In this document: piece by piece, positions 5,942 through 51,395 of the stretch | How positions within the stretch are numbered: the first letter of the stretch is position 1 | Layout: every line of letters starts with the position of its first letter | Origin: Siderastrea radians | Lineage: Eukaryota > Cnidaria > Anthozoa > Scleractinia > Rhizangiidae | Direction: 5' to 3' | Assembly (NCBI GenBank): GCA_964017195.1 | Contig: OZ024890.1 | Span: forward strand, 48,140,093-48,204,092 | Length of the DNA stretch: 64,000 nt | Made by a program: the position numbers and the translations under genes | The notes under the pieces: model-generated | Databases searched by the model: none | What the model was told of the DNA's origin: nothing | What the model saw: the letters and a program-made list of their open reading frames with translations, nothing else

Positions 5942-6352
5942 CAGGAGCCCATTACCCGGAGCGTCCAACCGCCACAAATTCGTGCAACAGCGTTTTTACA
6001 AGTAGGTTTATTTTAAGATAAACGTTTCCCGCGAAAATAACTGTTTCCGATGACGTCTGCATTAAATCTAAGCTACTACTTCCGTTGTAAATACTGAATT
6101 TATCGCTTGAAATACTGTCAGAACACTCCGATAAAGATTCCTCACAGGTCACTGGTATCCGTTATGTTTATTTCCAGCGTAGACGAGTTGTCGTAATTTC
6201 GTACTCAGTCTATTATTAATTACGCGATCGCTTTTTGATTGGCTATTTCAACCAATTCGCGCGAAAAGCTTATCTAAAAATAAATTTACTTGTGAAAATG
6301 CCGTTTCACAGACGCAGTATGGAAGTTGGACGCTCCGGGTAATGGGCTCCTG
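5942..6352. mobile_element. MITE, 411 bp, 28-bp perfect TIR
   Basis: CAGGAGCCCATTACCCGG and onward (28 bp) is repeated exactly in inverted form at the right end. TTTACCC flanks both sides as a 7-bp target duplication (5935-5941, 6353-6359). There is no transposase. The superfamily is uncertain; hAT-like is a guess from the duplication length. Confidence 0.8.
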
Positions 6353-6359
6353 TTTACCC

Positions 6360-8036
6360 CAACTTTGTTGTCGCGGCAAAATCTTCCCAGGCCGGTACCG
6401 CAGTTTACCTGCTACTACTAACCAACTACCTTGTGAAACCTAGTAACATTGAACTGAGGAGTAATCAAGAAGGAAGCCAACTTTGATTATACGTCATTTA
6501 ACTATAATTACATGTATAACTCGGATGTGAAGATAGCCACTATAAGGAAGCTTATTGTCTTAGCTTGCTCTCAGAGAGTTGTAGTCCGCGGATAGGTCGC
6601 GTAGCGACTCAGTAGAGTGTATTATGATAATCACTCTAAATCAGTCCTCAACTGGAATTAAATAAACTCCAGATGGTGGAATAACTTTTTTGGGGGTTAT
6701 TATAATTCCTTACTGCTGCGGTGGAGTTAAGCTAAGTAACCTACCCCATAAAAAGAGTAAGTCAGAAAAACACAATTTGATGACTGGACACAGGAGTAAT
6801 TTCAACTCCCGATTTGGAGTTAGGTTCAGTCAGGAGTTTTAAAAACCCTCACTGAAGGGATTATTTTGAACATGAAATTTAATCGCCATGTTTAATGTGA
6901 AAATAACTCTTTGAATATTACTGTGTATTAACAGAATCACGCGGTATCACAACTGCCTGTGTTGGTTTTTTTAAGCTTGTGACACACATGTATACCTTGT
7001 GATTTACATTTATTCCTAAAGAGCAAAGTTTCGTTAAAATACGTCTTGTGATTTTTCAGTGCAATTTTTTGCCTTTTTGACTGGATCAGCACAATCTTCA
7101 ATGTGGCAGGCAGGACAATTCGGCTACTTTTAAACATCTATGAAATTCAAGTTCAATTTGACGATTCAGTTCTTCTAAAGCGGAAATAAACTCCGGCGGA
7201 TTCTTCTATCAAGGCAAGCACAGCTCTACATTGGTAGCTCTAAGTCCTATAGTAGAGTAAAGCATTTTTCAGCGGCCATAGGTCGATATCCATTGGATCA
7301 CGCTGTGTTTTCTCTCAGAGAGAACATTTTGTTCTTACGTTTATTTGGCTGCAGTTTATTGGATTTGTTGCTATTTCAACCTTATAACAACAATGTCGTA
7401 ATTTTAATGTTCGTTGCAATTGGCCCGCATTGAAGTGGTTGTCAACTGTGCTTCGAGCGTTTAAAAGAAAATGACTGTAGATGAACCGGAAAAGCACCAG
7501 GTCAATGATTTAAACGGTAAATTATATTTCTCCAGAAGGTCCTCTTTCTTGAGTTGTTGTCTGAGACGTTTAATGTGTGGTTTGTCATAGGACGCGGATA
7601 AACAAACAGGACAGAGAGAGAGAGAGAGAGTGTGGGGGGGTACGCACACCAGTGTTTTTGAAAGGATTCATGTACGGAGGATTTCCCGTACGATCACCCC
7701 ACCCGTGTTGTATTTTATTTCGGGAAAAGAATATTCGCTGTGGGAATAAATTTTTTGTCTCAATATTTTGAAAAGCTGAATAAAGGTCGTTCTCGTGATG
7801 AAGTCTAATAATCTCACGAAATCACATGATTTTTTTTGTAATACTTGGATGCTGTAAATAAGAAAGCTCTCTTCATTTTACTGAGCATTTGGTACAGGCC
7901 AGGCCTATCACTTGTTGTCGCTCAAAACGACAATAGATTGCACGAATTTCAATTGAACCACCGATACTTACTTCTAGAATTCAGTTTCAACGTTGCATCG
8001 GTTGTATTAAGTGATTTAGAACACAATCTATCTATC
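6360..8036. other. Intergenic and probable 5' region of the ATP-grasp gene
   Basis: No coding exon could be supported. A short AG run occurs near 7613-7632. The frame of the ATP-grasp gene stays open upstream of 8037 to about 7845 but contains no in-frame ATG, so that stretch is taken as 5' UTR or promoter. Confidence 0.4.
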
Positions 8037-8316
8037 ATGGCAAACATTATTCTGTGTATCGGAAATGAGCTCTCCGAAGATCCGCACGTGTTTGATGTCG
8101 AGAGAAAGATCAAAGCACTGGACAGTGAGGCAAGACTAGTGAGTTTTGCACCCATGCAAGATGGCCATTTTATCGAAATCACCGCAGGAAATATTTCCGA
8201 GAATACTCCTAGCTGTATTTTTGTTGTGGATGGCGAACGCATCCCCGCTGAATCCATCACAGCTGTGTGGTGGCTCTGGAATCCTCATTTTCCATCGATG
8301 GATGGAGATCTCCAGG
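8037..8316 (+). CDS. ATP-grasp gene exon 1 (pre-ATP-grasp domain)
   Basis: Encodes residues 1-93 plus one base, from [19 protein letters not shown] to DGDLQ. The donor is CAGG/GTAGGT. The N-terminal beta strand and the DVERK segment are as expected for the substrate-contacting N-domain of this family. Confidence 0.82.
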
Positions 8317-11300
8317 GTAGGTTTTTACGCTTCATGATAAGAATTTTCTTATTTAAATTGTGCTGATATCTGGGTTGACGCTAATGGTGTTTTTGGGAAC
8401 AGACTTCCAGGATTGAGCGAGCGCCCTCATAATCTTACGAGTGTAGATCAGAATGCATGGCAGGCGCCAAAGGATGGGGGTGGGGGGTGGGGAAACAGGG
8501 AATCGCAAGAGGGAGTGCGAGAGGAAGGAGAGGTCTGCTTTTCCCTACCCTCGTGTTTCCCGCTCGCGTATCGCGCTTCCTAATTCCCCCTTCTCCCTTA
8601 GAGCAGCTAATGTAGTAAGAAAATAGTCTGGTGATTCCCCCCACTTTCAACTGAAGGTTCGCCTTTTAGTGTAGAGGCCACGTATGTTTCGTAAGCAGAA
8701 GACCGAAGTGACCAATATTTCACATGTTATATCGTGCCTTTTATTCACTTAATATGAATATTCCTGGCTTTCAATTTCTTACTTTGCGAGCTCATAGGAG
8801 GACGCTTTTCAGCAGAAACAGGGCCCCTTTTAGGGATACTGCGCTTGTTAGTGTGTAGAAATGCTTTCATAAAAAAGTGATCAAACACAAAAGCTGTAAC
8901 AAAAAATGCAAGCCCTAATAGCCCATTTTACCGTTGTGTTCTTTGAAGATCTTTTGGCCCTGGGGCCCGTTTCTCTAAAGCCCCAGTACCTTTTCGGGCC
9001 CAGAGCTATATTTTAAAATCAAAATCTATGGAATGGTGGTGAAGCTTTTAGCCCGTAAACCAGCTCGACTTGTTTCGTCAACTTAATTTTACTGGTCAGT
9101 TTTATAAACAAACAACATTTGAATCTTAAAGGTAAACCATGTGCTCATAAAATAGCTTTCCGGACCCCAGAAGTCATCGGGACTTTCGAGAAACGGTCCC
9201 CTGGCCATTGCGTGGATGTGAGGTTAGAGTTGACTAAATTTGTTTCCTCACAAACCTTGCTGCTTGTCATGTCTAAGCGATGATGACCAGAGACTTGTTA
9301 GCATGAGAACAACATGGCTTAATTGCATATGAAAAACAAAAAAGTTTGTATCGAAACAAAGAACTTTGGCCTCGCTTCCACTTAAGGGCCAGGTCACTAA
9401 GCACATGATGGTAAAAAAAATGACACTCGAGGGAAGGGAATTAGGTACATTAAGGATAGATGGGTTCAGTCAAGAGAGGATCCTTTCTTGGTTCAGTACC
9501 TGTATGCTCGCTGGTGACTATAGAGTTCGATGCTAGACGAGTAAGCACTTCTGGGTAGCAAAAGGCAGAATCTACCTGTCCCTATACTGTAAAAAACCTC
9601 CCCCCCCCCTCCCTGGCATTTATAAGCCCAACCGGTTATAGGCCTACTAGTTTGGTAACGAATTGCGAAACAAACAACGTACGCCTAAATGCTTCCTACT
9701 AGATACAAGGACACCTCATCTCCTGAAAGATAATTTTTCACACTATTCACACTAGGTAAAATAAAATAACGGTTTACCACCACAATATTTTCTGTCTAAA
9801 GAAGGGGCTATAAACTGAGATGTTAAGTTATATGAGGTCACATCTTCGGTGTCATTCTTCTTAGTTAAAAAAACTGAATATGAAAGACTTTCTGGATAAC
9901 AGCGCTTATAAACAGGACGTTCTGATTGAAGAATAAGAAGAATAATAATCTTTATTGAGGAAACTTTTTCACTTACATGTGGTTTTCGAAAAGGACCTCA
10001 AAGATTAATACTAAAAACTAAAATATCTACATTGAATATAAAAAAAAAATTTAAGAGGACTAAAAATATGAAATTTATAATACACTTAAATTAAAAAATT
10101 AAAAACCTGTCGCTTAAAAATATTTACATTGACAGAGTCTCGTATTATCTGGCTGAGAGAATTAAAATCATTTACAGCGTGATAGGCAGTTCTTTGTTTT
10201 CCCCAATTCCTTCTAATGCAGGGGAGTCTAAGATTGACTCACCTTACACAGGTTATCAAGATACACAGTTATCAGCACACAGGATCAGCACACAGGTTAT
10301 CAGCGAACAACCCTGCGAATAACCCTGCTTTTTGCCTTATAAGGAAACGGAATGCCTCGTAAAGTACAGTCACGCTTACCTAACCCGCAGACATGAAATA
10401 ATTGTTCAAGATTTCTCTTATTTCGCTTTGCACAGTTTTAAGAAGTACAATTCAAACTAATAACTTTTTATGGTTTGGTTTATCATTATTTGCACTTTCT
10501 ATTTTCCTTTCCCTTTATTTTGTGCAGCCATTATCCGTTTTTTCCTGATGGACAAGCTAGGTCAACCTCATTAGCCTATAGAACCAAAAATGCCCTAAAA
10601 TGAGCTCAACAGTGGTAACAATGGACCTGTTTGCTTGTTTAATTGTTTAAGTTGAAACCGCAAACATATTTTTAAAGGTTACATCGCCCAAGACTTTGTT
10701 ACTCAGGAGTGGGGGACGGTGATCCGTTCACTGGAATCCTATCTCTCTCATGCACGATGGGTTAACCCCTTGGATGCCATGCACATGGCGAACTGCAAAC
10801 CACATCAGTTGCGACTCGCTCAGGAAGTTGGGCTGACTGTGCCAAAGACCGCAATCACGAACAACCCAGCAACCGTGGAGAAACTCTTCGACGACGCGGA
10901 TAACGGGCGAGTGATTTTCAAGACTCTGACTCGGCTGTACATAGAGCCGGACACGATGGTTTACACCACTGAGATAAGAAACGAATTTCCATCGGCTTCC
11001 CGGGATCGCATCACTCGCTGCTCAGCTATTTATCAAGAGCTGGTGGAAAGAAAATCCGATTTACGCATCACTGTTGTCGGCAGCAAGGTGTTTACCGTCC
11101 GCATTGCTTCGCAGAAGTTCGAGGATGAGGAAGATCGCTTGGACTGGAGACGAAACCAGGACGACGCTGGGCTTCTTACTGTAGCTGAGGTAAAAATTAC
11201 TTTTCTCAAGAAATACGCGTAACATGCGCTTTTTGTTGAGTGGTGCGATAGTTTTTGGTACCTACTCAAAGTGCAAGTGGGAACGCAGTTGAGCTGTGGT

Positions 11301-13734
11301 TCGCGTGTTGCGTGTTTCGAGGCCTGGTGCGCGTTTCTGGAAAGCGACAAAAACAATTTGGCCCGGTAACGCCATCTGTAAAAGTAAAAACCACTCGTTT
11401 TACCACATGCTGTTATGTTAACACGTCTTTAAGATACAAATGTTTAACTTATTCAAAAGTTTCGCTCTTAGAAACTTCTTTGTTTTCAAGTGTGAAATAT
11501 CGTACCCAAAATCGGTCCGGAAAGTCTTGGGACTTTTGAGAAACGCACGCCTGGTCGCTCCGTCATGTTCTTTCTTTAGAACGATCTGAGAGTAAGTCCG
11601 GATCTGTCAAGTTTTGTACGATGCCAGTTTGCTACGATTAAGCACCACGAATAAGTCCGGATCTGTCAAGTTTTGTACGATGCCAGTTTGCTACGATTAA
11701 GCACCTGTGGTGGTTTTTGTTTTTTGTTTGTTGTTTGTTTTTTTTTTTCATTGTAATACTGTTGACGAGCGACTCGCTAGCACTCTGCTGAGAGGTACCA
11801 AGACTCTGCTTTAATTGCTTCTTCTCATAACTCCTACAACGTCTCAAAATCATATCTCGAATCTCTCATCTAACATCTCTCGCAAACCTTGCTATGTACT
11901 TAAATTGTAGACATGTTTGAGTTTCCCAGGCGTGGAAACCGAAAGGCTCTAATTTGACGGCAAAACAACTAGCTAACAAAACCAAATCATACCACCAGAC
12001 AAAATGAAGAAACTCAATTGAAATCAAGCAAAAGAAAAAAGCGAAGTCGACTACCCTACTCAAAACTAGCCTTCATTTTCACTTTGGTGTGGAGCCACTT
12101 TGGTGTGGGTCCACACCAAAGTAAAGCACAAACGCCCAAGCATGTCTACTGTGGGATAATTCATTCATAATAAGGTAAAACAACGAGAATCTTCAAGCAA
12201 ACTATTTAAAATGTCGCTTTCTGTCTTCTCAGATTGTTCCGAGGCCTTTTAAAAGGATATTTTTGTGTAAGCTAACACAGGCTGTTTGCATTTTTTAGCT
12301 AAAGATTTAGGCCGCACAAAGGGAATTTTACTCACCGAATTCCAGTAAATGCTAGCTGAACTTTTTTCCACAATCGAAGCGACATACATGTATACATCTA
12401 TCTCTCTGAAAACAAGAGGAACGGGCCATTTCCGAGTTGTCTTGTACCAGTTTTTCAGAGCGACTCTCGGTGCAGAGCCTTTCATATTCAGGTAGGTAAC
12501 GGTAAAGTTGCACACGAGTCAAGGAGGCCCACACGACCGGAGCTTATCACGGTTTTTGTAGCATGAAGCAACTGAGAGTATTGCTACTCGGCCCCCCTCC
12601 TCCGGATGGGATGCTAGTCCATCGCAGGGTTCCCTCCAGCGGTATGTCACCGGTACCCATTTTATACTCTTGGGTGGAGGGAGTTAAATGTGGGGTAAAG
12701 TTTCTTGTCTAAGGAGACAACACGATGGCAGGGACTTTGCTTCGAACCACCGACCTTCAGATCTGAAGTCCAACGCGCTAACCACTACACCACCGCGCCC
12801 CCACCTTTCATATTCAAATGAGTTGTAATTCTCATTCAAATAAAACTGATTTTAATATGAAAGGTTGAGCATCAGGCCTCGCTTTGAAAGAGGCACAAGA
12901 CAACTTGGAACTGGAAAATTAATCTTTTCGTGTTACTACACTTTGAGATGACATTTCGCCATTTCTCCAGTTTTTCATCACAAACTAAAATGTCACAAAT
13001 ATGCATTCCGAACTGATATTCTACCCAAATCACCCTCTTGAATTGGGTTTTTGAGCAAGGGCTGGTCGTTTTATTAAATTAGTTTATTTAATAGCCCAAT
13101 TTCGATATATTAGAATTCAACTTAAAACAATTGACAACACCACGAGGCTTAGGGGAATAATATAAGGATCTATATGGGTTTATTCCCCTAAGCCTCGAAA
13201 TGATGATGCCTAATGATTCCTACTGTTTAAGACTGAATTATAATATATCAAAATTGGGCTATTCTTTGTGAACATCTACCTTTTAAGATCTGTTTGGGTC
13301 CCGACGAAATAACAAATGGCACATGATCTTTTTATTTTTGGAGTTAAAAAATTGTGAAAGAAAAATGGCACCAAAAATCTTTTTAAAGTCGAGATGATAC
13401 TGGCCATATGTAACGTGATTTTACCACTGCAAGTTGAATCTACTCTAATTGTTTAGATAGTCAGGACACTCCTTCAGTTATACAGTTTTGATTGAATTTT
13501 GTTTTCTTGTAACAGATACCCGAGTCGCTTAAAGAGCGTTTGTTGAAATTCCATGAGAAAGCAGGTGTGGCTTTTGCCGCATACGACTTTTTAGAGCGTG
13601 GGGATGAGGTCATCTTTCTGGAATGCAATCCAGGCAGACCAGCCTGGATGAGGTTAGAGGTAGCTCTTGGTATCACTGTGTCTGAGCACCTCGCGCGATA
13701 CCTTCTGGGTAAGGAGGAAACCGAAGCTTATTGA
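8037..13734 (+). CDS. MvdC/MvdD-type ATP-grasp peptide maturase-like protein, three exons, complete
   Basis: Exons 8037-8316, 10678-11189 and 13516-13734 join in frame with GT-AG introns to give 336 residues, about the usual length of MvdC/MvdD enzymes. Residues 1-93 are a pre-ATP-grasp domain ending in AVWWLWNP (76-83), where bacterial relatives carry an AVWxRRP-like motif. The ATP-grasp part has [18 protein letters not shown] (134-151), TNNPATV, VIFKTLT (K175), [16 protein letters not shown] (213-228) and AYDFL...FLECNPG (286-304), so the candidate Mg-binding D288, E300 and N302 are kept. Bacterial relatives use ATP to activate acidic side chains of a ribosomal peptide and close ester or amide rings with Ser, Thr or Lys. 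The substrate here is unknown. The ATG at 8037 is the first in frame and has G at +4. I infer a cytosolic enzyme (no signal peptide), possibly an old bacterial acquisition given its introns. A different ATP-grasp ligase function cannot be excluded. Confidence 0.85.
8957..9203. mobile_element. MITE in intron 1 of the ATP-grasp gene
   Basis: GGGGCCCGTTTCTCTAAAG at the left is matched in inverted form by CTTTCGAGAAACGGTCCCC at the right. TGGCC flanks both ends. The same termini recur at 11322-11553, and one end recurs near 14978. Confidence 0.6.
10678..11189 (+). CDS. ATP-grasp gene exon 2 (ATP-grasp core)
   Basis: The acceptor is TTTTTAAAG; GT completes the glycine codon begun in exon 1. It encodes [11 protein letters not shown] through GLLTVAE and ends in phase 0 before GTAAAA. 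It carries K134 and K175, probable ATP-phosphate contacts, and the QELV motif. Confidence 0.85.
11322..11553. mobile_element. Related MITE in intron 2 of the ATP-grasp gene
   Basis: CCTGGTGCGCGTTTCTGGAAA and the inverted TTTTGAGAAACGCACGCCTGG bound about 230 bp, diverged from but like the 8957-9203 element. Confidence 0.5.
11593..11705. repeat. 58-bp tandem duplication
   Basis: AAGTCCGGATCTGTCAAG through CTACGATTAAGCACC occurs twice, 58 bp apart, nearly identical. It lies in intron 2. Confidence 0.85.
12590..12803 (-). mobile_element. tRNA-derived SINE
   Basis: Read on the minus strand it starts GGGCGCGGTGGTGTAGTGG, has a pol III A box (TAGTGGTTAGCGCG) and B box (GGTTCGAAGC), and then a non-tRNA body ending GATGGACTAGCATCCCATCC. 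The anticodon arm is degenerate, so this is a SINE and not a working tRNA. It lies in intron 2 of the ATP-grasp gene. Confidence 0.75.
13090..13264. mobile_element. Palindromic MITE in intron 2 of the ATP-grasp gene
   Basis: AATAGCCCAATTTCGATATAT is matched by inverted ATATATCAAAATTGGGCTATT. A second inner palindrome (CGAGGCTTAGGGGAATAA / TTATTCCCCTAAGCCTCG) lies inside. No target duplication was resolved. Confidence 0.65.
13516..13734 (+). CDS. ATP-grasp gene exon 3 (metal-binding C-terminal end, stop)
   Basis: The acceptor is CTTGTAACAG. It encodes [20 protein letters not shown], then the AYDFL and [11 protein letters not shown] motifs, then a helix with [12 protein letters not shown] and a TGA stop. 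Bacterial enzymes usually have NPNGQW where this has NPGRPAW, so the loop after the metal ligands differs. Confidence 0.83.
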
Positions 13735-24400: not shown

Positions 24401-27400
24401 TTCTTGTGCTTGTGAACTTGTGTACGAAGGTCCTCTCAAGAAACAGCGAAGATCGAAACGCACTAATCACAGCCGACCATCGTGATTCAAATGGTGACGC
24501 GCAACCAGTCGACCTCATCGCCTGATGAAGACTAGCAGTAAGCAGTCGAAACGTCGCGATCTACAACTCAAGTGACCACATCGTGCGACAAACCATTTAC
24601 ACTTTTATTATTGTATTTACCACGATGAAAAATAACCACCTTTTTTACGACAATTATATTTCTATTTCAACCACAACCACGAAAGTGGAGTTAAAACGAG
24701 AGCGCAAGAAGCCGTAGCTTCTCTATGGTCAAAGGAGACTGCAACAGCCTCAGAATAACTTGGATCCTATGGACACTTATGACATCTGTGACAAAGAAAG
24801 TTGCATGCCTCGCAGATAGCCCGGCAATCAAACACCAAATCACGCCAGTACTTAAGAAATAAACGGATCCTTTAAGAAAGCATCACTTCTTTTAGTGGCT
24901 TTTAGAGATCTTGCAATCAAACTGAGCCCAAAAACCATACTAATTGCCAAACGGCTAGAACACACGATAGCCGAAAGTTTCTGAAGGGCTCTTAGAATGT
25001 CTTACCCTCCAAACATATCACAGCTTGAGCCTGATTCCCTCTCTCGGTCGATATAGTTCAACCACACAGTTTAGTTGTGTCGCTTTTAAATCATCTTAAT
25101 CAAAGGGACAAAGCTTTTAACGATTGTACTTGGGAAAGCTCTATTTTGAAGGCTAGAATAACTCCAGCGATTAGTGGGAGTGGTGTTTGGCTTGTCTTTT
25201 TACATACTATCAAGGTACTCTACTTCGGTACCTCTCAAAGGCACTTTCTTCTCCATTTCTGTAAAAGCTAACCGCCATTTTGCATGCAGCGGTCCACTGG
25301 AAAACCGCTGGCCACAGAATTGTTGCGCATGGGTAGAAACTATGCATACTGACAAGTGCCACGCAAGCTCTTGAATTTATTTTATTTTACTTTTGCACCC
25401 CTTTGAACATATAAGCCTAATTTCAAGTACTTTTTTTTTCATTACTGCCTTTTCCGTGAAGTTTTTATTGACTTAATTACTGTACTGACACTTAACAGCA
25501 TATTCTTTTATAACACTAAACAGTTAAATTTGACATGTTTTAACACTTAACATAAAAAAAAACAGCAAATAACGCTTAACAGTAAACCTCATCCAGACCT
25601 TCTTTTAATTATTGCGCAGAAATAAACACTCCCTAGCAATATACATGAGTTTCTTATTAAATTCCGGTACTCCTACTCAAGTATTGTTGATTTGATAAGT
25701 TCTATCAAGTAGTGCCCTAGCGAGAGCGAGTCTATAAGGTTGGGATGTAAATCGTTGTTAGGGTGGCTAGAATTGATATAGTCCAAAACATTAGCATCAT
25801 TTTCGGAGTGTACCAAGCAAAAAGTATTACGAACGTTTGACGGTAAAAAAAAACAAAAAACAAAACAAAACAACAACAACAACAAAAAAGAAAACCTTAA
25901 GAAGCCTGAAAGTCTGGCAACCATAAACTTTCATGATACCCTTATGAAAAGGTCAGCGAGAACAGGAGGCAGCGGGGAGCACATGGGTACACCATCGATC
26001 TGGTAAAGATGGATCTGAGCAGTAGTTCTGGATAATAGATTCCTACTTAACTTGATGTCGGGTTTCCTTCGGTTCTGTGGATGTGCACTTAGTAAACTTT
26101 GTGGCAGGAGTGGAAAGAAGTGTGTGTGTGAGGGGGGGAGGGGGGGGAGAGAGAAATTATTTCCAATCGTGGAGCGCGAGAGGAAGGGAGAGGGCGTCCT
26201 CTCCCGTCGTCTCCCATCTTCTCGCCCTCTGCACTCGTTGCTCGCACTTTCTCCCCTTTTCCCTCCCCTTTCCGCGCCTGCCATGCAGGCTGCGCACTTA
26301 GCTGAGCCATCCACATATATTGCAGGCACCCCACTTAAATAATTATAACGAACAATTTCAAATATTTTAAATCTAATAGAGCAAACTAATGTTGCATGCT
26401 AACTCCAGCAGGGAAACCTGATATATTAAGCTTAGTAGCAATCTTATCTCCTCCAGTTTTGTGTTTTATCCGTGGTGCAGAATCAACGGGTCTTTCGAGG
26501 AGTACTTGGAACGAGGGTTTCTAACTGGGTATTGGGAACGAGGACCAACACCGCCACCAACATTATCGCCAGCTCGTTCTTATTGTTGCTCTCACTAAGA
26601 CCTTCATTCATTCGAAGGAGCCCGTTAACATCTTTAAGCCTCTTCAGTTGTGACATATTCGCAAGAGTTGTGCGCCTATCGTCTATTTTGACCCCTCTGA
26701 GGATCGCGTGAAAGATAGTTTAAAAAGCTTGTTAGCTCATTTAGAAGGCAAAACACGATAAACAAATGATAACAAACTAAATTGGACCACAGACCGGTAG
26801 TGACGATATTAACTCGAATTGAACATAGCAATAACTGTGACTGAATTCTGTCGGTACTCGGTACGAGCAGAAATTCCAATTGCATGGATTCGGCGATAAT
26901 GCCAAAAAAACAACAACAGCAGCAGCAACATCAACAAAAACGACGACGACCTCAGTTTGTCATGCGGCTGCCATTTAACCCATAAGGGAATACGTAATGT
27001 ATACCATTTTTGCATCTGCGGCCCACAATCGAAGACAACAGACAATAATCATGCTAAAAAGACAGGCCGAGCCTATAAGCTTATCACATTAACGAATTAG
27101 AATCTACTTTATGAGTAATACAAAGAATGATTATCTACTTTACTTCAGATGTTGAAGGAAATAAAAACCAACTTTATGCTTACCCGCAAGTAGACCAATG
27201 ACCAAGGAATTAGCTCCAAACACCAGTGCCTTGAACATTACGCTGTCCATGTAAGGATCGATGGAGGAAGGTATACCCTCTTTGGGTATTCTATTCACTG
27301 CTCCAATTCCAAGGTTGACAAAGGTGACGGCAAGAGATGACAGCATCAGCTTGTTCTCAAACGGATCGATTATGGGTTTCTTCGTGGCAAAGAACATTCC

Positions 27401-30400
27401 ATAGAGACCTGACATCACACACGCTAACCCAATGTAGGCCCTGCTCTCGCCTCCCACAAGAATCAAACCAGATGTTAGGATTACTTTACGAAGCGTTTCG
27501 ACAAATTCCCAATACCACGAATGAGGTTTGTAGTTCTCATAAACGAACCTCAACCCCCTTAAAACCTCGGTGCTGTGATCTTTACTGTCGCTTGTCTCGT
27601 TGTTGGATTCGTTTTCAATTTTGCTGAGCGCTTTTCGTTGTCTCCAAGTAATCACCATGGCTGCAGTAGGCAGAAGAAGTATGTAGAAAACGGAACAGTA
27701 TGCAACGATAACTGATCTGTTATACTTTTCTCCTGTGCATTGAATTGTATAGTCTGCTTTTAGGAACTTTTGGCAACTTTCTTCCTTTTCGTCATAGCAA
27801 ACTTCACGGCAAGCAGGGGAAAGAACGTTTGCTGTCTTGGAGCACGTGCTAAGGTATGTCACATAGAGGAAGAAAAAAAGGTTTCTGTAAACCAACTCTT
27901 TCATTTGAGACATTTTTCTTAGCTTCTCTTCTCTGTTTAGAGTTTTCAGTCGCATTTTGCTCAGGCTGTAAACAGCAAATGCAACGACGATGGCAGCAGC
28001 ATTTATAGCGAGCGTGGCAAACAAGCTTCCGAATGCGTCGACCTTCAAATTTGGAAAGAGGCAGTTGATTGGGGCAATCTGAAGAACGTTTAGCTGCAAC
28101 ATCTCAGAATATTTCCCGATAACTGCGAGAGAGTCCGGCCATTTGATGTACGAGAATGCTTCTAGTACTCCAAATGTTACTTGGTAGAAACCGATGACAA
28201 TTTTCAATCTTCCAAGAATGACATCAACTGAGGAGCGGCCTATAATGTTTTTTCTTTTCTTTTTGATAGTCCATACAACGACTGCAATGACTATTACCAC
28301 CACTGCTGCCATTATTGAAAGCTGCCCAGCCATCCATTCCTTTGTGGGACATTCTCTGCATTTTTTCAGTTGTTTATAGTATCCGTCTCTGCAAACTTCA
28401 CACAACGGACCTTCATAACCAGGACTACACAAAGAACTTAGACCTCCAGTACAGGTTTCATTCTGTGGACATTTGTGTGGCCGTGGAAGAGGGAAAGGGT
28501 ACTCAATGAGGGTGAGATTATCCCTGGAAGAATTGGAGCGGAGTGAAGGACGAAAAGATTCATTCTTAAGATTGTTAGTAAATTGTTCATAAAGTAATCT
28601 GTGGCTTTCATTCTCCCATTTCCACCAATAACCTTCTTTGAGTGAAGCGTAGTCATCTTCACATTTAAATCCGCCGTCTTTGTCACATGGTTCGCAGCTA
28701 TCGAAAAGGTGGGTACGGTAGAATCCATTCAAGCATTTGCAGGCGCGAAATCCCGCGAAAGCGGCAGTGTCTGTACCTGTTCATAAGAGAGAACGTGGAA
28801 GAGAGGAGGTTAGCATATATTTAAACCATATTTATTTTTCAATTACAGGAAGTCGTACTGGGGTGTGAGTTAGTTTTAGAGTGTTAGTTGCGTTCTAATG
28901 CATGCAAACTTTGACGTGACTTTAAGTTTTCTTTACATTTTTTTTAACTTGCTTGGCAGGCTAAATTTTCCCTGCTTTGCTCATAAGATAAGTTCTTTGT
29001 TTTTTTCCTAAGCCGAAGACAGTCCTTCCCAGGTGGCAGATTCGAAAAGTAAACTTCCATATCGATTTTGCGATCATGAATACGCATTTTTTAAAATTTA
29101 ATTTACCTTGCGGACAAGCAATGCAATCGCTTGCGATTTTTCCAGGTGCTTTGTCGTAGGGAACAAAAGTGCCTTTAGGGCACCTTCGGCAGCTGTCACT
29201 GACAAAAGCTTCAGTGTCCGAGTAGAAGCCGCCTGAAAGAATCAATAATAAAACATTGCTTTCATCAGCGTTTCAGCTACAGTTCGGAATTAAGTCTTGA
29301 CAAAGGACATTTCAACATTATTTACACTAATGAACATAGGCAGTGTTTAGATACCCAGGGTACGAATGTTTCGAGGCTAAAATTTCGAACAATTTTACCA
29401 TTCTGAAAGTATTAGATATTTGTTTAGAACTGCCAACCGATTCAGAAAAGTATTGTGCGTACTAGAAAACTGGAATATTTCCAACACTTAGAATTATTTG
29501 TGGCTAGTCATAAACACAGAATTTGGACGTAACTTCTCATTCAAACGTGCTGGGAGTGTTAGAAGATTGTTTACAATATCCAAGCGATTCAAAAGACCAA
29601 TTTGTTTTTGCAGTTATCGAAGTTTCAGAGCTTGAGCATGGTATAAAATGGCTTGCTTTATCCCTGTATGATCCGAGCCATAACGCCACCATCAGTGACA
29701 TGTCACGGATGCTGTAAAGTTCTTATCCTGCCAGAAATATGGCCCAAAAAACCACTAAATCACTTATCAACGCCATACAAAGTTAGGAAGCCATGGGTCT
29801 TTCGAATCTCTTGGTAATTTTTAATGAGAAATTTAGCCCAAATTCCGGGTGTTTCTGCCCCCCCCCCCCCCCCGGAGGACTCTCATATAAAAGCGACAGG
29901 AGAGATCGTCGTAAATTTTGAAAAGGACCCCTAAGAGGTACCAGAATTCTGTTTTGTGGGCGTGGCTTGCATAAATTATTACCCCTAAGAGGTAGCAACT
30001 CTAAAACAATACAATACAATAATACAATACAATTAGAAGCCGTGAATACAATACAATACAATACAATGCAATGTAATGCTCTGCAATACAGTGTGAATGT
30101 AATACAATACAATACACTAACTCGCTCTTTATTATGAGACAAGAATAATCATCAATTGACTGACAATTACTTTCTGTCATGTTTTTTGGGTCAATTCCCT
30201 AAAAGGTACTGCCATTACACTGACGGTAGTAATTTCAGATTTTAGCTCCCTAAAGGATACCAAACCACGAATTTTTACCCTAAAAAGTACGACGGTCACC
30301 ACCTCCCCTGGTTTCTGACTGGCAGGTATAGCCACAAATAATCCTAATCGCAAACATCGGAATTTATTTCTAGTATGCACAAGCTCGGAAAACTCGCCAA

Positions 30401-36400: not shown

Positions 36401-39400
36401 GGGAATCATTTGGAGTCGGGATCATTTCGTGAGCCGTACATGCAGTTGAGTTCCTACAAATAGTTTTGGTCCGATTTTGCCCAATTCTACTTACCTTACC
36501 CTATCAATTTCATTTGAATATGGAACACTAACGCAAAAACAACGGCGGAGTTTTTTTGCTTCGAAAACTTTTCACAACTTTGGCACCTCGTTAGAGCTGT
36601 TATCACACACGGTTATGCCGTCGATCAATACAAAGACTGAGCTGAGTTGTTTCTACCGATAGACTGTGAAACGATTTCAAGCTCATTTCCCACATCCCAC
36701 AGTGATGTCAGTGTTTGAGCGTTTGCTTGTTTGTTTGCTTTTTCTGAGTAAGGGTGACGAGTAAAATGGCCAAGTTTCAAAGTCACATCTTGCAAAATAG
36801 GGGAGTTAAAGTTTCGTAAATTCGGCAAATTTTGCAGACGTTTGTGTGAAAGCGAGCCACAAAATGCCTACCGGTACCGGCAAAAAGTTTCTCGTGGTCA
36901 CATAATTTGCCGATTTTACCAAACTATACCTTGCACCCGGCAGGGTGCTTCGTTTTCGAGTTTAGGTGCGTCGTCTTTTACTTTGACTGCTTCGGTTTTC
37001 ACTCGAAAGTGAAGACCGAAGCACGAAGCACCCTGAAACTCGAAAACGTAGCACCTGAACTCGAAAACGAAGCGCCCTAAACTCGACAACGAAGCGGCAC
37101 CCTGAACTCGAAAACGAATCACCGGAAGTCGAAAACGAAGCACTATAAACTAAATGCGTGTAGCTTTTTATCGACGCAACTGGAAACAATGGCCAAGTTT
37201 GAGAATAGGGAAGATATACTTCGGTAAAATCGGCAAATTATGCGAACAAGCTGGAGAAAGTTTTTGCCATTACCGATAGGCGGTTTATGTCCTACACTCG
37301 AAAACGAAAAAAAAAAAAAAACCTTCGTAATGAGATAACAGTGAGATGCGAAAATAAGTTTGAAGTCGTTTCACAGCCTATCGCTAAAAATAACGCAGCT
37401 CACCTCTGGGGGGTACTCAACAAAGTTTCTTACGGGGATTATCCGCCCGGTAGCTCAACCACTTATCCCTTCACATACTTATACCTAATCGTACCTTTTT
37501 GGTACGCTTCGGCGGCATATCAGGCGAGTTTGGTCGAGCCATGGTGAGACCAAACGAGCTTGATATTTATACCTAATCGTACCTTTTTGGTACGCTTCGG
37601 GAGCATATCAGGCGAGTTTGGTCGAGCCATGGTTAGTATTTTGTCGAGACGCAGTCGAGCCAAAATACCCATGACGAGACCAAACGAGCCTGATATGCTG
37701 CCGAAGCGTACCAAAAAAGGTGCGATTAGGTATTTACCGTACCCAAATTCGTCCTAAAACCCGGCGTTATTTTTTCGTACTCGCGAGCGCCCGCCAGTGT
37801 AGCCGCGTCCAATTTTGGCGCGAAATTGTATTTTTTTTCTCTGTTAGAGTTAAACAAATTACTTTTTCGTTTAACAAATGTAATAGTTTTACGTTTCGTT
37901 GTCTTTCTGTTGTAATTTTTACCTCTAAAGTCTTGAAAAAAGTGCAAGTTTTAGAAACTGTCCATGATATCGTAGGATATCAGGTCAGTGACTTGATATC
38001 GTAGAAAATCATGACAGTAAACAAGGCTTCTGATTGGCTAATTCACCATTTGGGTACGGTAAATAAAGCAAAGTGAACTGTATCGTCACATTTTTCTTCC
38101 GGTGACAACAGTAATCCCTAATTCGACGAATCCTTCTTGTGTATACGTATAACATGTACGATGGCAAACTAAACGTACTGCTGCAAAGCGAATAGATTTC
38201 TTCTAACCAAAGAGTGCAAAATCAATTTATATAGTTCCCAGTTACTCGGATACAAAGAGCTCATCAGAGATAAGACATCATTACCCATCATTCTTTATTC
38301 AACACCCACTTGCTGTTCCCATGCACACTCAGGCGATTCAAGTTCTTTCACTTTCTAGCGCCAACCGATGACGTAATGTAGACGCCCTCGATAAGAAAAA
38401 CCTCGCTTCTTTCAAATTTAATGTAACGTTAATAAAGAACACCTTACCTGCTGGACATTCCAGGCACTTGAGGTTAGCCCTATCGTTTACAGTTTGATTC
38501 ACAAACGTCCCCAACGTACATTTAAGCAATTTGTATTTGCCATGGGTTTGATTGGCAAACCCAGCTCGACCAAAAGCCTCTAACAAAAGGGCTTTTACAA
38601 AACCAACTTCCTCCGAGATGTCTATATATTCCGTGTCATCTTGCCCTAAGCCGCTAAAGACCCAGAAGAAAAGGTAAACAAAACGCAGTGAGGTGACGAA
38701 GAAAATTAAAAAAAAAAAAAAAAGAGGAGAAACAGAATCAAGGGGATAAAACAAATGAGTGCATCAAATTCTTAAAAACTGAATAGTTGTAGTCAGGAGT
38801 GGACATAGTGAAGTGAAAAGGTTTGTCTCTGACTTGCTTTGAACACTTGCTAAAGGACGTTTCGGCTAATGCTTAAGCCTTCATCAGTTTGATAAAAGAT
38901 TGTTATTACGCGTGATTAAAACTATAGCACGTGCATGGGCGTGCTAAAAAGTTGTTATCAAGTTGCGCGTAAAGTTTCAAACGTATCGCGGGACTTGAGC
39001 GCGCGCCAGAGATTCGTGGACCTCTGGAATGGCAATGTGGTAGTTCCCTGTGTTCAGATCTTTAGTTGGCAGCCAAGCTTCCAGGAAAAGTCGCTCTTGA
39101 AAATTTGCCTCATGTCCAACAACTTTGACATAACTAAAGTCCATGTGATAACTGTTTTCGTAGACGTGACACGCAACCTTGGAGTTGTAGTCAAACAAAG
39201 AGACAGCCTTTTTGTGTTCCACAATCCACGTGTTCAGTTGTCTTTCTGTTTGACCATAGTGAGGCCCTGTTAGGGGGGGTCTGAATAATCCATAATCCTG
39301 GCTAAATTTTGGAAATAATCCGTATCCCAATTTTGTAAACAAATATATCCCTAAAATAAAATTTTAAGACAATCTCTATATATACAGTAACCCGTAATTA

Positions 39401-49672: not shown

Positions 49673-51395
49673 CTACCTCATCTCGTAGAGCACATTAAGG
49701 TTACCTTCAAAAGGCGAAATTTTTTCGAAATATTGACTGTTGAGGTGGTGTAAGAAGCTGTCAACATTACCGCGATCAAGGATGGTGAAGGTGTCATCAA
49801 CGTAGCGCCTCCAGATCTTGGGCTTGTAGGGTGCGAACTCTATTACTTGTTCTTCAAACGCCTCCATGTAGAGGTTAGCAATAACCGCGGAAACCGGACT
49901 CCCCATGGCTGCGCCTTCTTGTTGTTCGTAAATCGATCCGTTGTACAGGAAGTATATAGATCTTAATACGAAATTCAAGAGGTCCGTAATCTCAGCAGGT
50001 GTTAGCGTCGTGCGGTCTGCAAGGCCGGGGTCGTTCTCCAACTTTCGTCGCGCGGCTTGTACGGCACCTTCAATTGGAACGTTGGTGAATAGTGACTCTT
50101 CGTCGAAGGACACCATGATCTCGTTGTCTTGAATCTTCTCACTGCTGATGATGGATGCGAAGTGAGTTGAGTTGGTCACCGTTAAATCTGAATTGCCTGT
50201 TAAGGGAGTTAAGATGTTAGCCAAGAAAGCAGATAAGTAATATGCAAAGGTGTTTACGCAGGACACAATAGGCGCTCAACGGTATGATGGCCTTGCGGAT
50301 CTTAGGTAAACCATAGATCCTAGGTGGTTGCTTGTGTCGCGGTCTGCTCTTGTTATAAACAGCGTCTGATATGCGCCCGTTTCTCTTAAGGGAGAGCAGC
50401 TTCTTAGACAGTTTTCGGGTCAGAAGGCCTGTCGGGTCTTTGTTGAGGGGCTGGTAGGGTCTCAATCAGCGCTGACATCTTGGCGTGGTATGTGTCAGTA
50501 TCCAGGACTACGCTAGCACGACCTTTATCCACCGGCAGGATCATGATGGTGTTGTCCTCTTTAGTTAAGGCTTTTGAGGGCGTCTCGCTCTTCCTTTGTG
50601 ATGTTGGGCTTCGGTGGTTCTGCCTGTTGAAGGATAGTGTTAACAGCTCTCCTTACAGTGTCTGCTCGTTCCGCGTCGAGTGAACTTGCTGCTAACTCAA
50701 CCTTGGCAATAATCTCAGTGGCTGGGATGTTTGTAGGAGTCACGGCAAAATTCAGCCCTTTCTTTAACAGGGACTCCTCAGCGTCGCTAAGGAACCTAGA
50801 CAGACAGGGACAGATTAATAACCCACTTAGCTTTGTCAACATAAAGTGTTCTTGTATGAGAAACAGAAGCTCGTTTACCGCGCAAAAGTTTTTCAAACTT
50901 GCGCTGTTGACGGTCTTTGGTGGTATTAAAGACTCGCTGGGTGTTCGATCTGATCTTGTCCAGTACCTCCGCTACATCCTCAGCCGAAAGAGCGGATGTT
51001 ATGATCTGAGCTGTGGACTCAGCTTCTCTCTTGCCGTCTTTTCTGGCTCTCTGGGTCAATCGGATCCTTTCTCTCAGGAATCTCATGGATGCTACTTCAG
51101 CGACTCTGCGTGCGCCTTTGGTGGGAACTGGCGGCCGAATCTGGAGATCTTTAGGAACAATGTGGTTCTTTATGCACCTTGTGAGAAAGGTGAGATGATT
51201 GACATAGCGTGCGAGCTTGCGTGAGCAACGCTCGTGTCGACGAATCAACCGTAGGGCTGTGCGCCCGTATTTCAGGTCAATGTCGTAAAAAAGGTGGTTA
51301 TTGTTCATGGTGGTAAATATAGTTAAATTATAAAGTGTATATCGTTTGTCTCACGATGTAGTCACTCGAGTTGTAGATCGTGACGTTTCGACTGT
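49673..51395 (-). mobile_element. PLE, terminal repeat plus reverse transcriptase, decayed
   Basis: The minus strand starts in a PLE terminal repeat (51345-51395) and then a frame beginning MNNNHLFYDIDLKYGR (51308). Through at least three frameshifts it gives KPNITKEERDALKSL, IMILPVDKGRASVVLDTDTY, RPRHKQPPRIYGLPKIRK, SFDEESLFTNVP (motif A), GAAMGSPVSAVIANLYME (motif B) and WRRYVDDTF (motif C). It stops at 49673 before the thumb and GIY-YIG. It is the same lineage as the 23.7-24.7 kb element, whose right end starts with the same MxNNHLFYD. Confidence 0.85.

Follow-up and report, generated by a model that had tools for sequence, protein, structure and literature searches.

An expanded anthozoan family of ATP-grasp ligases related to graspetide-forming enzymes, with an intact three-exon member in Siderastrea radians

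Introduction

Graspetides are described in part of PMC13418204 as derived from bacteria and archaea. Among their ATP-grasp ligases, MdnC contacts the precursor leader through V182, E191, D192 and N195, the last three of which meet Arg17 of the precursor (an excerpt of PMC7823629), while one Lys and one Asp are given as essential in AMdnC in a section of PMC5934393; we matched the latter two to the protein studied here by motif only. A leader signature of graspetide precursors, Phhx(1,2)h, is stated in a portion of PMC8939145. Here we analyze a gene related to these ligases in the stony coral Siderastrea radians, located at positions 8037 to 13734 of a 64,000-nucleotide stretch of DNA, hereafter the window (C4:48140093-48204092 in an assembly of 805 Mb and 439 contigs). 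None of the papers listed by our searches of open-licence literature reports a graspetide-type ligase in a cnidarian. An earlier note on this DNA had interpreted the gene as an intron-bearing peptide maturase of the MvdC/MvdD type, acquired long ago and perhaps closing graspetide-like rings.

With moderate confidence, we interpret the window gene as one of the intact copies in an anthozoan ATP-grasp ligase family, whose enzymes would act on carboxylates of peptides or proteins and whose substrate recognition would have changed. The gene model, its copies in the genome, the phylogeny and the pattern of retained and altered residues on which this interpretation is built are described first, followed by the alternatives.

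Gene structure and copies in the genome

The window gene consists of three exons that join in frame to 1011 nt and encode 336 amino acids with a single terminal stop. Exon 1 (8037..8316), found as the same exon in the paralogues, covers residues 1-93 and the first base of codon 94 and holds the start of the pre-ATP-grasp domain. Exon 2 (10678..11189) contributes the remainder of residue 94 to residue 264 and the ATP-binding core, and exon 3 (13516..13734) contributes residues 265-336, the metal-binding end of the ATP-grasp domain, and the stop codon TGA; these and all other features of the gene lie on the plus strand. Both introns are of the GT-AG type. Intron 1 (8317..10677; 2361 bases, phase 1) has the junction letters CAGG/GTAGGT at the donor and TTTAAAG/GTTAC at the acceptor, and the repeat-bearing intron 2 (11190..13515; 2326 bases, phase 0) has GCTGAG/GTAAAA and TAACAG/ATACCC, respectively. 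The earlier note's model of an intron-bearing host gene with three exons and 336 residues was borne out with all the motifs it had named: the two junctions, 8316/10678 and 11189/13516, recur in paralogues, and the closest named relatives are anthozoan.

A search of the coral's own genome returned 59 matches, which after grouping correspond to 20 loci distributed over contigs 2, 3 and 4, each of 71-75 Mb; both counts are lower bounds. All loci except the one at C3:58496541 were inspected. Eleven of these 19 gave intact three-exon models with the same two junctions (the window copy, L009, L012, L015, L016, L017, L021, L022, L023, L025 and L028), and a further four (L018, L024, L026 and L027) were classed neither as intact nor as broken. 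In all copies that could be modelled, the introns interrupt the coding sequence at residues 93/94 and 264/265. The copy nearest to the window gene is L009, with 322 of 336 residues identical. The ratio of nonsynonymous to synonymous substitution rates (dN/dS), obtained by a simple counting method, ranges from 0.145 to 0.428 over the 36 pairs of nine intact copies, a set without L022 and L023, which were modelled later, and without L026 and L027, which have open models and an off-family acceptor. The family is under purifying selection, although the evidence is weakest for the recent pair of the window copy and L009 (0.396 at a dS of 0.048).

Three paralogues have near-identical counterparts among uninterrupted open reading frames (ORFs) on short contigs. 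The spliced model of L022 agrees with an ORF on a 1.9-kb contig at 332 of 335 residues, that of L023 with one on a 2.1-kb contig at 338 of 338, and that of L028 with one on a 1.4-kb contig at 332 of 334. We read these contigs of 1.4-2.1 kb as transcripts of the three loci, although their records give no such label and retrocopies are conceivable. Since the full-length frames match spliced models, both junctions are supported in the paralogues. The protein record P0032 matches L009 at 156 of 158 residues, yet it represents an unspliced exon on a 743-kb contig. As a separate observation, P0018 and P0020, two protein records from contigs 568 and 914 kb long, show exons 1 and 2 as one open frame that runs into intron 2, and intron 1 seems to be absent from some anthozoan copies.

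Kinship and phylogeny

The window protein matched the MvdC model in the NCBIfam profile scan with an E value of 3.7e-44 and PDB entry 5ig8 with 3.9e-33, and 51 protein relatives were found at E <= 1e-3. The overall fold, seen in the structure of a proxy, agrees with those of MdnB, MdnC and PsnB. The Pfam scan detected no match to the MvdD-like pre-ATP-grasp domain PF21068 at E <= 1 in the window protein; this domain is carried by many bacterial relatives (among the best 120 of 332 matches). Neither a known eukaryotic ligase nor any other ligase family outscores the graspetide models in the Pfam, NCBIfam and PDB scans; a eukaryotic identity of the protein is thus not supported, which leaves the earlier note's family placement undisturbed in this respect. 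The named animal relatives are uncharacterized or hypothetical proteins of Porites lutea, Acropora millepora, A. cervicornis, A. muricata and Actinostola sp. These proteins belong to the same family, fall into several paralogous groups and show 53-61% identity across 99-100% of the query; among the matches listed, their record names describe no function. Mycosporine-type ATP-grasp enzymes, the topic of many of the coral ATP-grasp papers listed by our literature searches, were also considered.

Trees were calculated with 15 of the 51 protein relatives as anthozoan rows and P0051 as a bacterial one, most fragmentary matches being dropped. They do not include RimK, the loci L026 and L027, the incomplete or broken L010, L011, L013, L014, L018, L019, L020 and L024, or the later-modelled L022 and L023. 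In the 42-row tree, a single clade (100/100) unites the 24 anthozoan rows and joins the bacterial proteins P0069, P0074 and P0082 at 99/96. After addition of Pedobacter and Herpetosiphon rows and removal of PruB (9bou), the resulting 43-row tree separates the anthozoans, the same three proteins and the Pedobacter enzyme from MdnB and MdnC at 100/99. The third tree, of 169 rows, is rooted on MdnB, was evaluated by Shimodaira-Hasegawa-like approximate likelihood ratio (SH-aLRT) support only, omits six near-copy anthozoan rows and uses every fourth of the bacterial records P0052-P0120; here the anthozoan clade sits on a long stem (length 1.09) nested in a large bacterial set (96 and 99). Such a pattern would be expected from one old bacterial transfer followed by duplication, and the gene was probably acquired from bacteria long ago, in line with the earlier note. 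The bacterial set includes Pedobacter, a Bacteroidetes metagenome-assembled genome (MAG), an alphaproteobacterium and a Thermoanaerobaculia MAG (among the best 120 of 299 matches), and because it spans these lineages the donor phylum cannot be told.

Conserved and altered residues

Residues were compared over 25 anthozoan, 122 nearer bacterial and 29 other bacterial rows, P0013 being left out for a gap in its gene model. None of the three sets varies at Lys175, Gln213, Arg223, Asp288 or Glu300, and the ATP and metal residues are present and invariant in 25 of 25 anthozoan rows. Lys175 (codon 10920..10922) aligns with Lys166 of MdnC, Arg223 (11064..11066) with R217 and Asp288 (13585..13587) with D281. 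In the metal-binding loop (13615..13647), E300 and N302, the metal ligands of this family, are kept.

On the substrate side the picture is different. The position after the loop Gly is Gln in all 122 nearer bacterial rows and Gln (25) or Glu (4) in the 29 others, whereas it is Ala in every one of the 25 anthozoan rows (Ala307 in the window protein). The common anthozoan loop is NPGGAW, to which the relatives of the window copy add one residue (NPGRPAW in the window copy itself). The earlier note had singled out NPGRPAW; the loop is indeed altered, but its key change is fixed in all the anthozoan rows examined, so that the alteration is wider than this motif and not peculiar to the window copy. 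In the region equivalent to the leader contacts (10956..11000), the alignment places M187, E196, F197 and S201 at V182, E191, D192 and N195 of MdnC. The E191 position is acidic in 22 of 25 anthozoan rows, and the D192 position is occupied by Phe in 22 of them and is missing from the other three. Because the latter position varies among the 122 nearer bacterial rows as well (Asp 34, Gln 29, Glu 13, Leu 10), the loss of D192 by itself carries less weight than the altered loop.

Precursor search and bacterial neighborhoods

Partner ORFs were sought in 20 stretches of 8-10 kb around the copies and in the first 30 kb of the window (ORFs of at least 25 aa, E <= 1e-4, between clusters only, up to three ORFs viewed per group). 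No recurring partner or precursor ORF was found among the 45 examined of 69 shared ORF groups; as far as the ORFs viewed show, these 45 stem from repeats or from the enzyme gene itself, in another frame or in its flanks. The search could miss a precursor that is small, evolves fast or is split over several exons, and genes of animals need not cluster.

On a Pedobacter plasmid, a ligase related to the family follows a short ORF with a tail rich in Thr, Ser, Tyr, Lys and Asp and with a P-F-A-S-E-L stretch, which fits the graspetide leader signature provided that Ala is counted as hydrophobic. This one neighborhood suggests that the nearer bacterial set may act on ribosomal precursors. The plasmid (L030, 4794-4979 with 6247-9096) carries the graspetide-type ligase and the precursor-like ORF just before annotated lasso-peptide biosynthesis genes. 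A scan of genome contigs with two peptide patterns confirmed one bacterial relative, L029, which groups with MdnC (97/86 in the 43-row tree) and adjoins YPSD-type repeats. Together with L042 and L046, also from uncultured bacteria of the phylum of G001, it has ATP-grasp genes beside ORFs with repeated YPSDSD- or APSDNED-type cores; judged from these motifs, the three neighborhoods are predicted multicore microviridin-like clusters.

Other features of the window

About 180 bp before the ATG, a block at 7781..7857 (plus strand) is ~75-77% alike in the paralogues L012 and L015, with no match at E <= 1e-3 in seven of the 11 compared copies; it is a possible candidate for a promoter, 5' untranslated region or other regulatory element of the subgroup of the window copy. 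Intron 2 contains a 57-nt unit in two copies that are 98% alike and spaced by 59 nt (11590-11705), a short repeat with parts recurring in the L009 and L016 stretches (12580-12805), the end of which resembles a tRNA-derived B-box region, and an inverted repeat (13090-13263; 40-nt arms, 85% complementary, 94 nt between) that looks like a small hairpin transposon. Further downstream, probable exons of a multi-exon receptor-like gene lie on the minus strand at 27140-29272, with weak sub-threshold Pfam matches to DUF7630, 7TM and Ephrin_rec_like. A segment at 38338-38763 is similar to these exons by eye and has no Pfam match, and a reverse transcriptase fragment (RVT_1, E 2.8e-7) occupies 49673-50275 of the minus strand.

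Discussion

A single bacterial enzyme of the graspetide-ligase type would have been acquired before the sampled coral and sea anemone lines split, and subsequent duplication would have produced the ~20 loci of S. radians. As in MdnC, ATP would phosphorylate a peptide or protein carboxylate, either on a side chain or at the C-terminus, and a neighboring amine or hydroxyl would attack the acyl phosphate to give an amide or ester. The ATP-grasp half-reaction, which forms the acyl phosphate, is very likely because of the invariant residues and the fold; a peptide or protein is a likely substrate because of the kinship, and ring closure by the anthozoan enzyme is no more than possible. In the sequence and the proxy structure model, the window protein starts straight with the initial strand of the first domain, and no signal peptide is apparent by eye from both (no predictor was used), so the cytosol or nucleus is the expected site of action. 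Such a location counts against venom-type secreted peptides as substrates, unless their modification precedes secretion. Combined with the loss of the leader-contacting Asp and the loop Gln/Glu, it makes a host peptide or protein of the cytosol, without a microviridin-type leader, the probable substrate.

Several results weigh against this interpretation. The curated cut-offs of MvdC, MvdD and GRASP_SAV_5884 (TIGR04185, TIGR04184 and TIGR04187) are missed widely, with 151.1 versus 425, 109.3 versus 475 and 145.3 versus 350 bits, respectively; judged by these scores the protein is not a canonical MvdC/MvdD, whereas the MvdC/MvdD-type ATP-grasp kinship named in the earlier note stands. The structure used is that of a proxy that shares 55% identity with the window protein. 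Support within the set of anthozoans, P0069, P0074, P0082 and Pedobacter is low in the 43-row tree (83/40 and 80/31), the 42- and 43-row trees carry long-branch warnings, in the latter also for the Pedobacter row, and the exact bacterial sister is unsure in the 169-row tree (SH-aLRT of 68 and 38 at the nearest forks). Frameshifts or stops have broken at least four (L013, L014, L020 and the L010/L011 pair) of the 19 loci inspected, and among the protein relatives there is no transcript-like contig for the window copy or its twin L009. The lack of a recurring partner ORF in the groups examined counts in the same direction, and the replacement of Gln/Glu by Ala could mean a different reaction. 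Finally, all function is inferred: transfer, activity and a peptide or protein substrate are deduced from the observed gene structure, catalytic residues, proxy fold, purifying selection and kinship.

Among the alternatives, the enzymes may have been neofunctionalized to couple small molecules with a free amino acid or an amine, or to extend a protein tail by further residues in the manner of RimK, without forming rings. The window protein does pass the gathering score of the Pfam RimK profile (22.2 versus 21), but it misses the cut-off of the NCBIfam RimK subfamily TIGR00768 (39.2 versus 143.4), and graspetide ligases score higher with the family than RimK in both sequence and structure; we consider this alternative unlikely.

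Somewhat less probable still is a full graspetide-like pathway, in which the enzymes would close rings in a dedicated anthozoan precursor encoded elsewhere, through ester or amide bonds from Thr, Ser or Lys to Asp or Glu. Among relatives of solved structure, graspetide ligases are the nearest, the related Pedobacter enzyme adjoins an ORF with a P-h-h-x-x-h stretch (signature from the cited part of PMC8939145), and a sponge has side-chain ester-linked peptides, though with no grasp enzyme in that transcriptome according to the cited part of PMC13418204. Nevertheless, neither the leader-contacting Asp nor the loop Gln/Glu has been retained, no recurring precursor gene was seen in the flanks and ORF groups examined, and a cytosolic enzyme without an apparent signal peptide would not be expected to meet secreted precursors. 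The ring-closing role envisaged in the earlier note is not supported, in view of the first two of these points and of the missed curated cut-offs.

Decay into a non-catalytic domesticated protein, with copies drifting to pseudogenes, is very improbable: the broken loci would fit it, but the catalytic residues are invariant, dN/dS is far under 1 and three paralogues are seen as uninterrupted contigs. Bacterial contamination or an assembly artefact, which the bacterial type of the enzyme might suggest, can be dismissed given two host-style introns, ~20 loci on chromosome-scale contigs and relatives in named Porites, Acropora and Actinostola records.

Beyond the reading of the window gene as a ligase of peptide or protein carboxylates, we tentatively propose a broader one, that anthozoans own an animal-encoded system of side-chain cross-linking of ribosomal peptides or proteins, run by expanded, bacterially derived graspetide-type ligases that would have abandoned the leader code of bacteria in favor of a newly evolved substrate choice. 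A selected animal family of this enzyme kind with ~20 loci would open animal ribosomal-peptide chemistry to test. A position held by Gln or Glu in 151 of 151 bacterial rows has lost this residue in each of the 25 anthozoan rows, which poses a sharp structure-function question.

Comparison with known systems

The anthozoan family differs from MdnC/MvdD and MdnB/MvdC in its introns, its many paralogues and the absence of an adjacent precursor in the flanks examined. At the residue level, the position of Glu300 in MdnC is Ala in the anthozoan family, and MdnC position 212 is Arg in 25 of 25 anthozoan rows versus Lys in 122 of 122 nearer bacterial rows. The nearest relatives of the family in the trees are P0074, P0069, P0082 and the Pedobacter plasmid enzyme. 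The window protein has 112 of 323 residues in common with P0074, 115 of 320 with P0069 and 30% with the Pedobacter enzyme, and its ECNP and DWR motifs are also found in P0074, P0069 and P0082.
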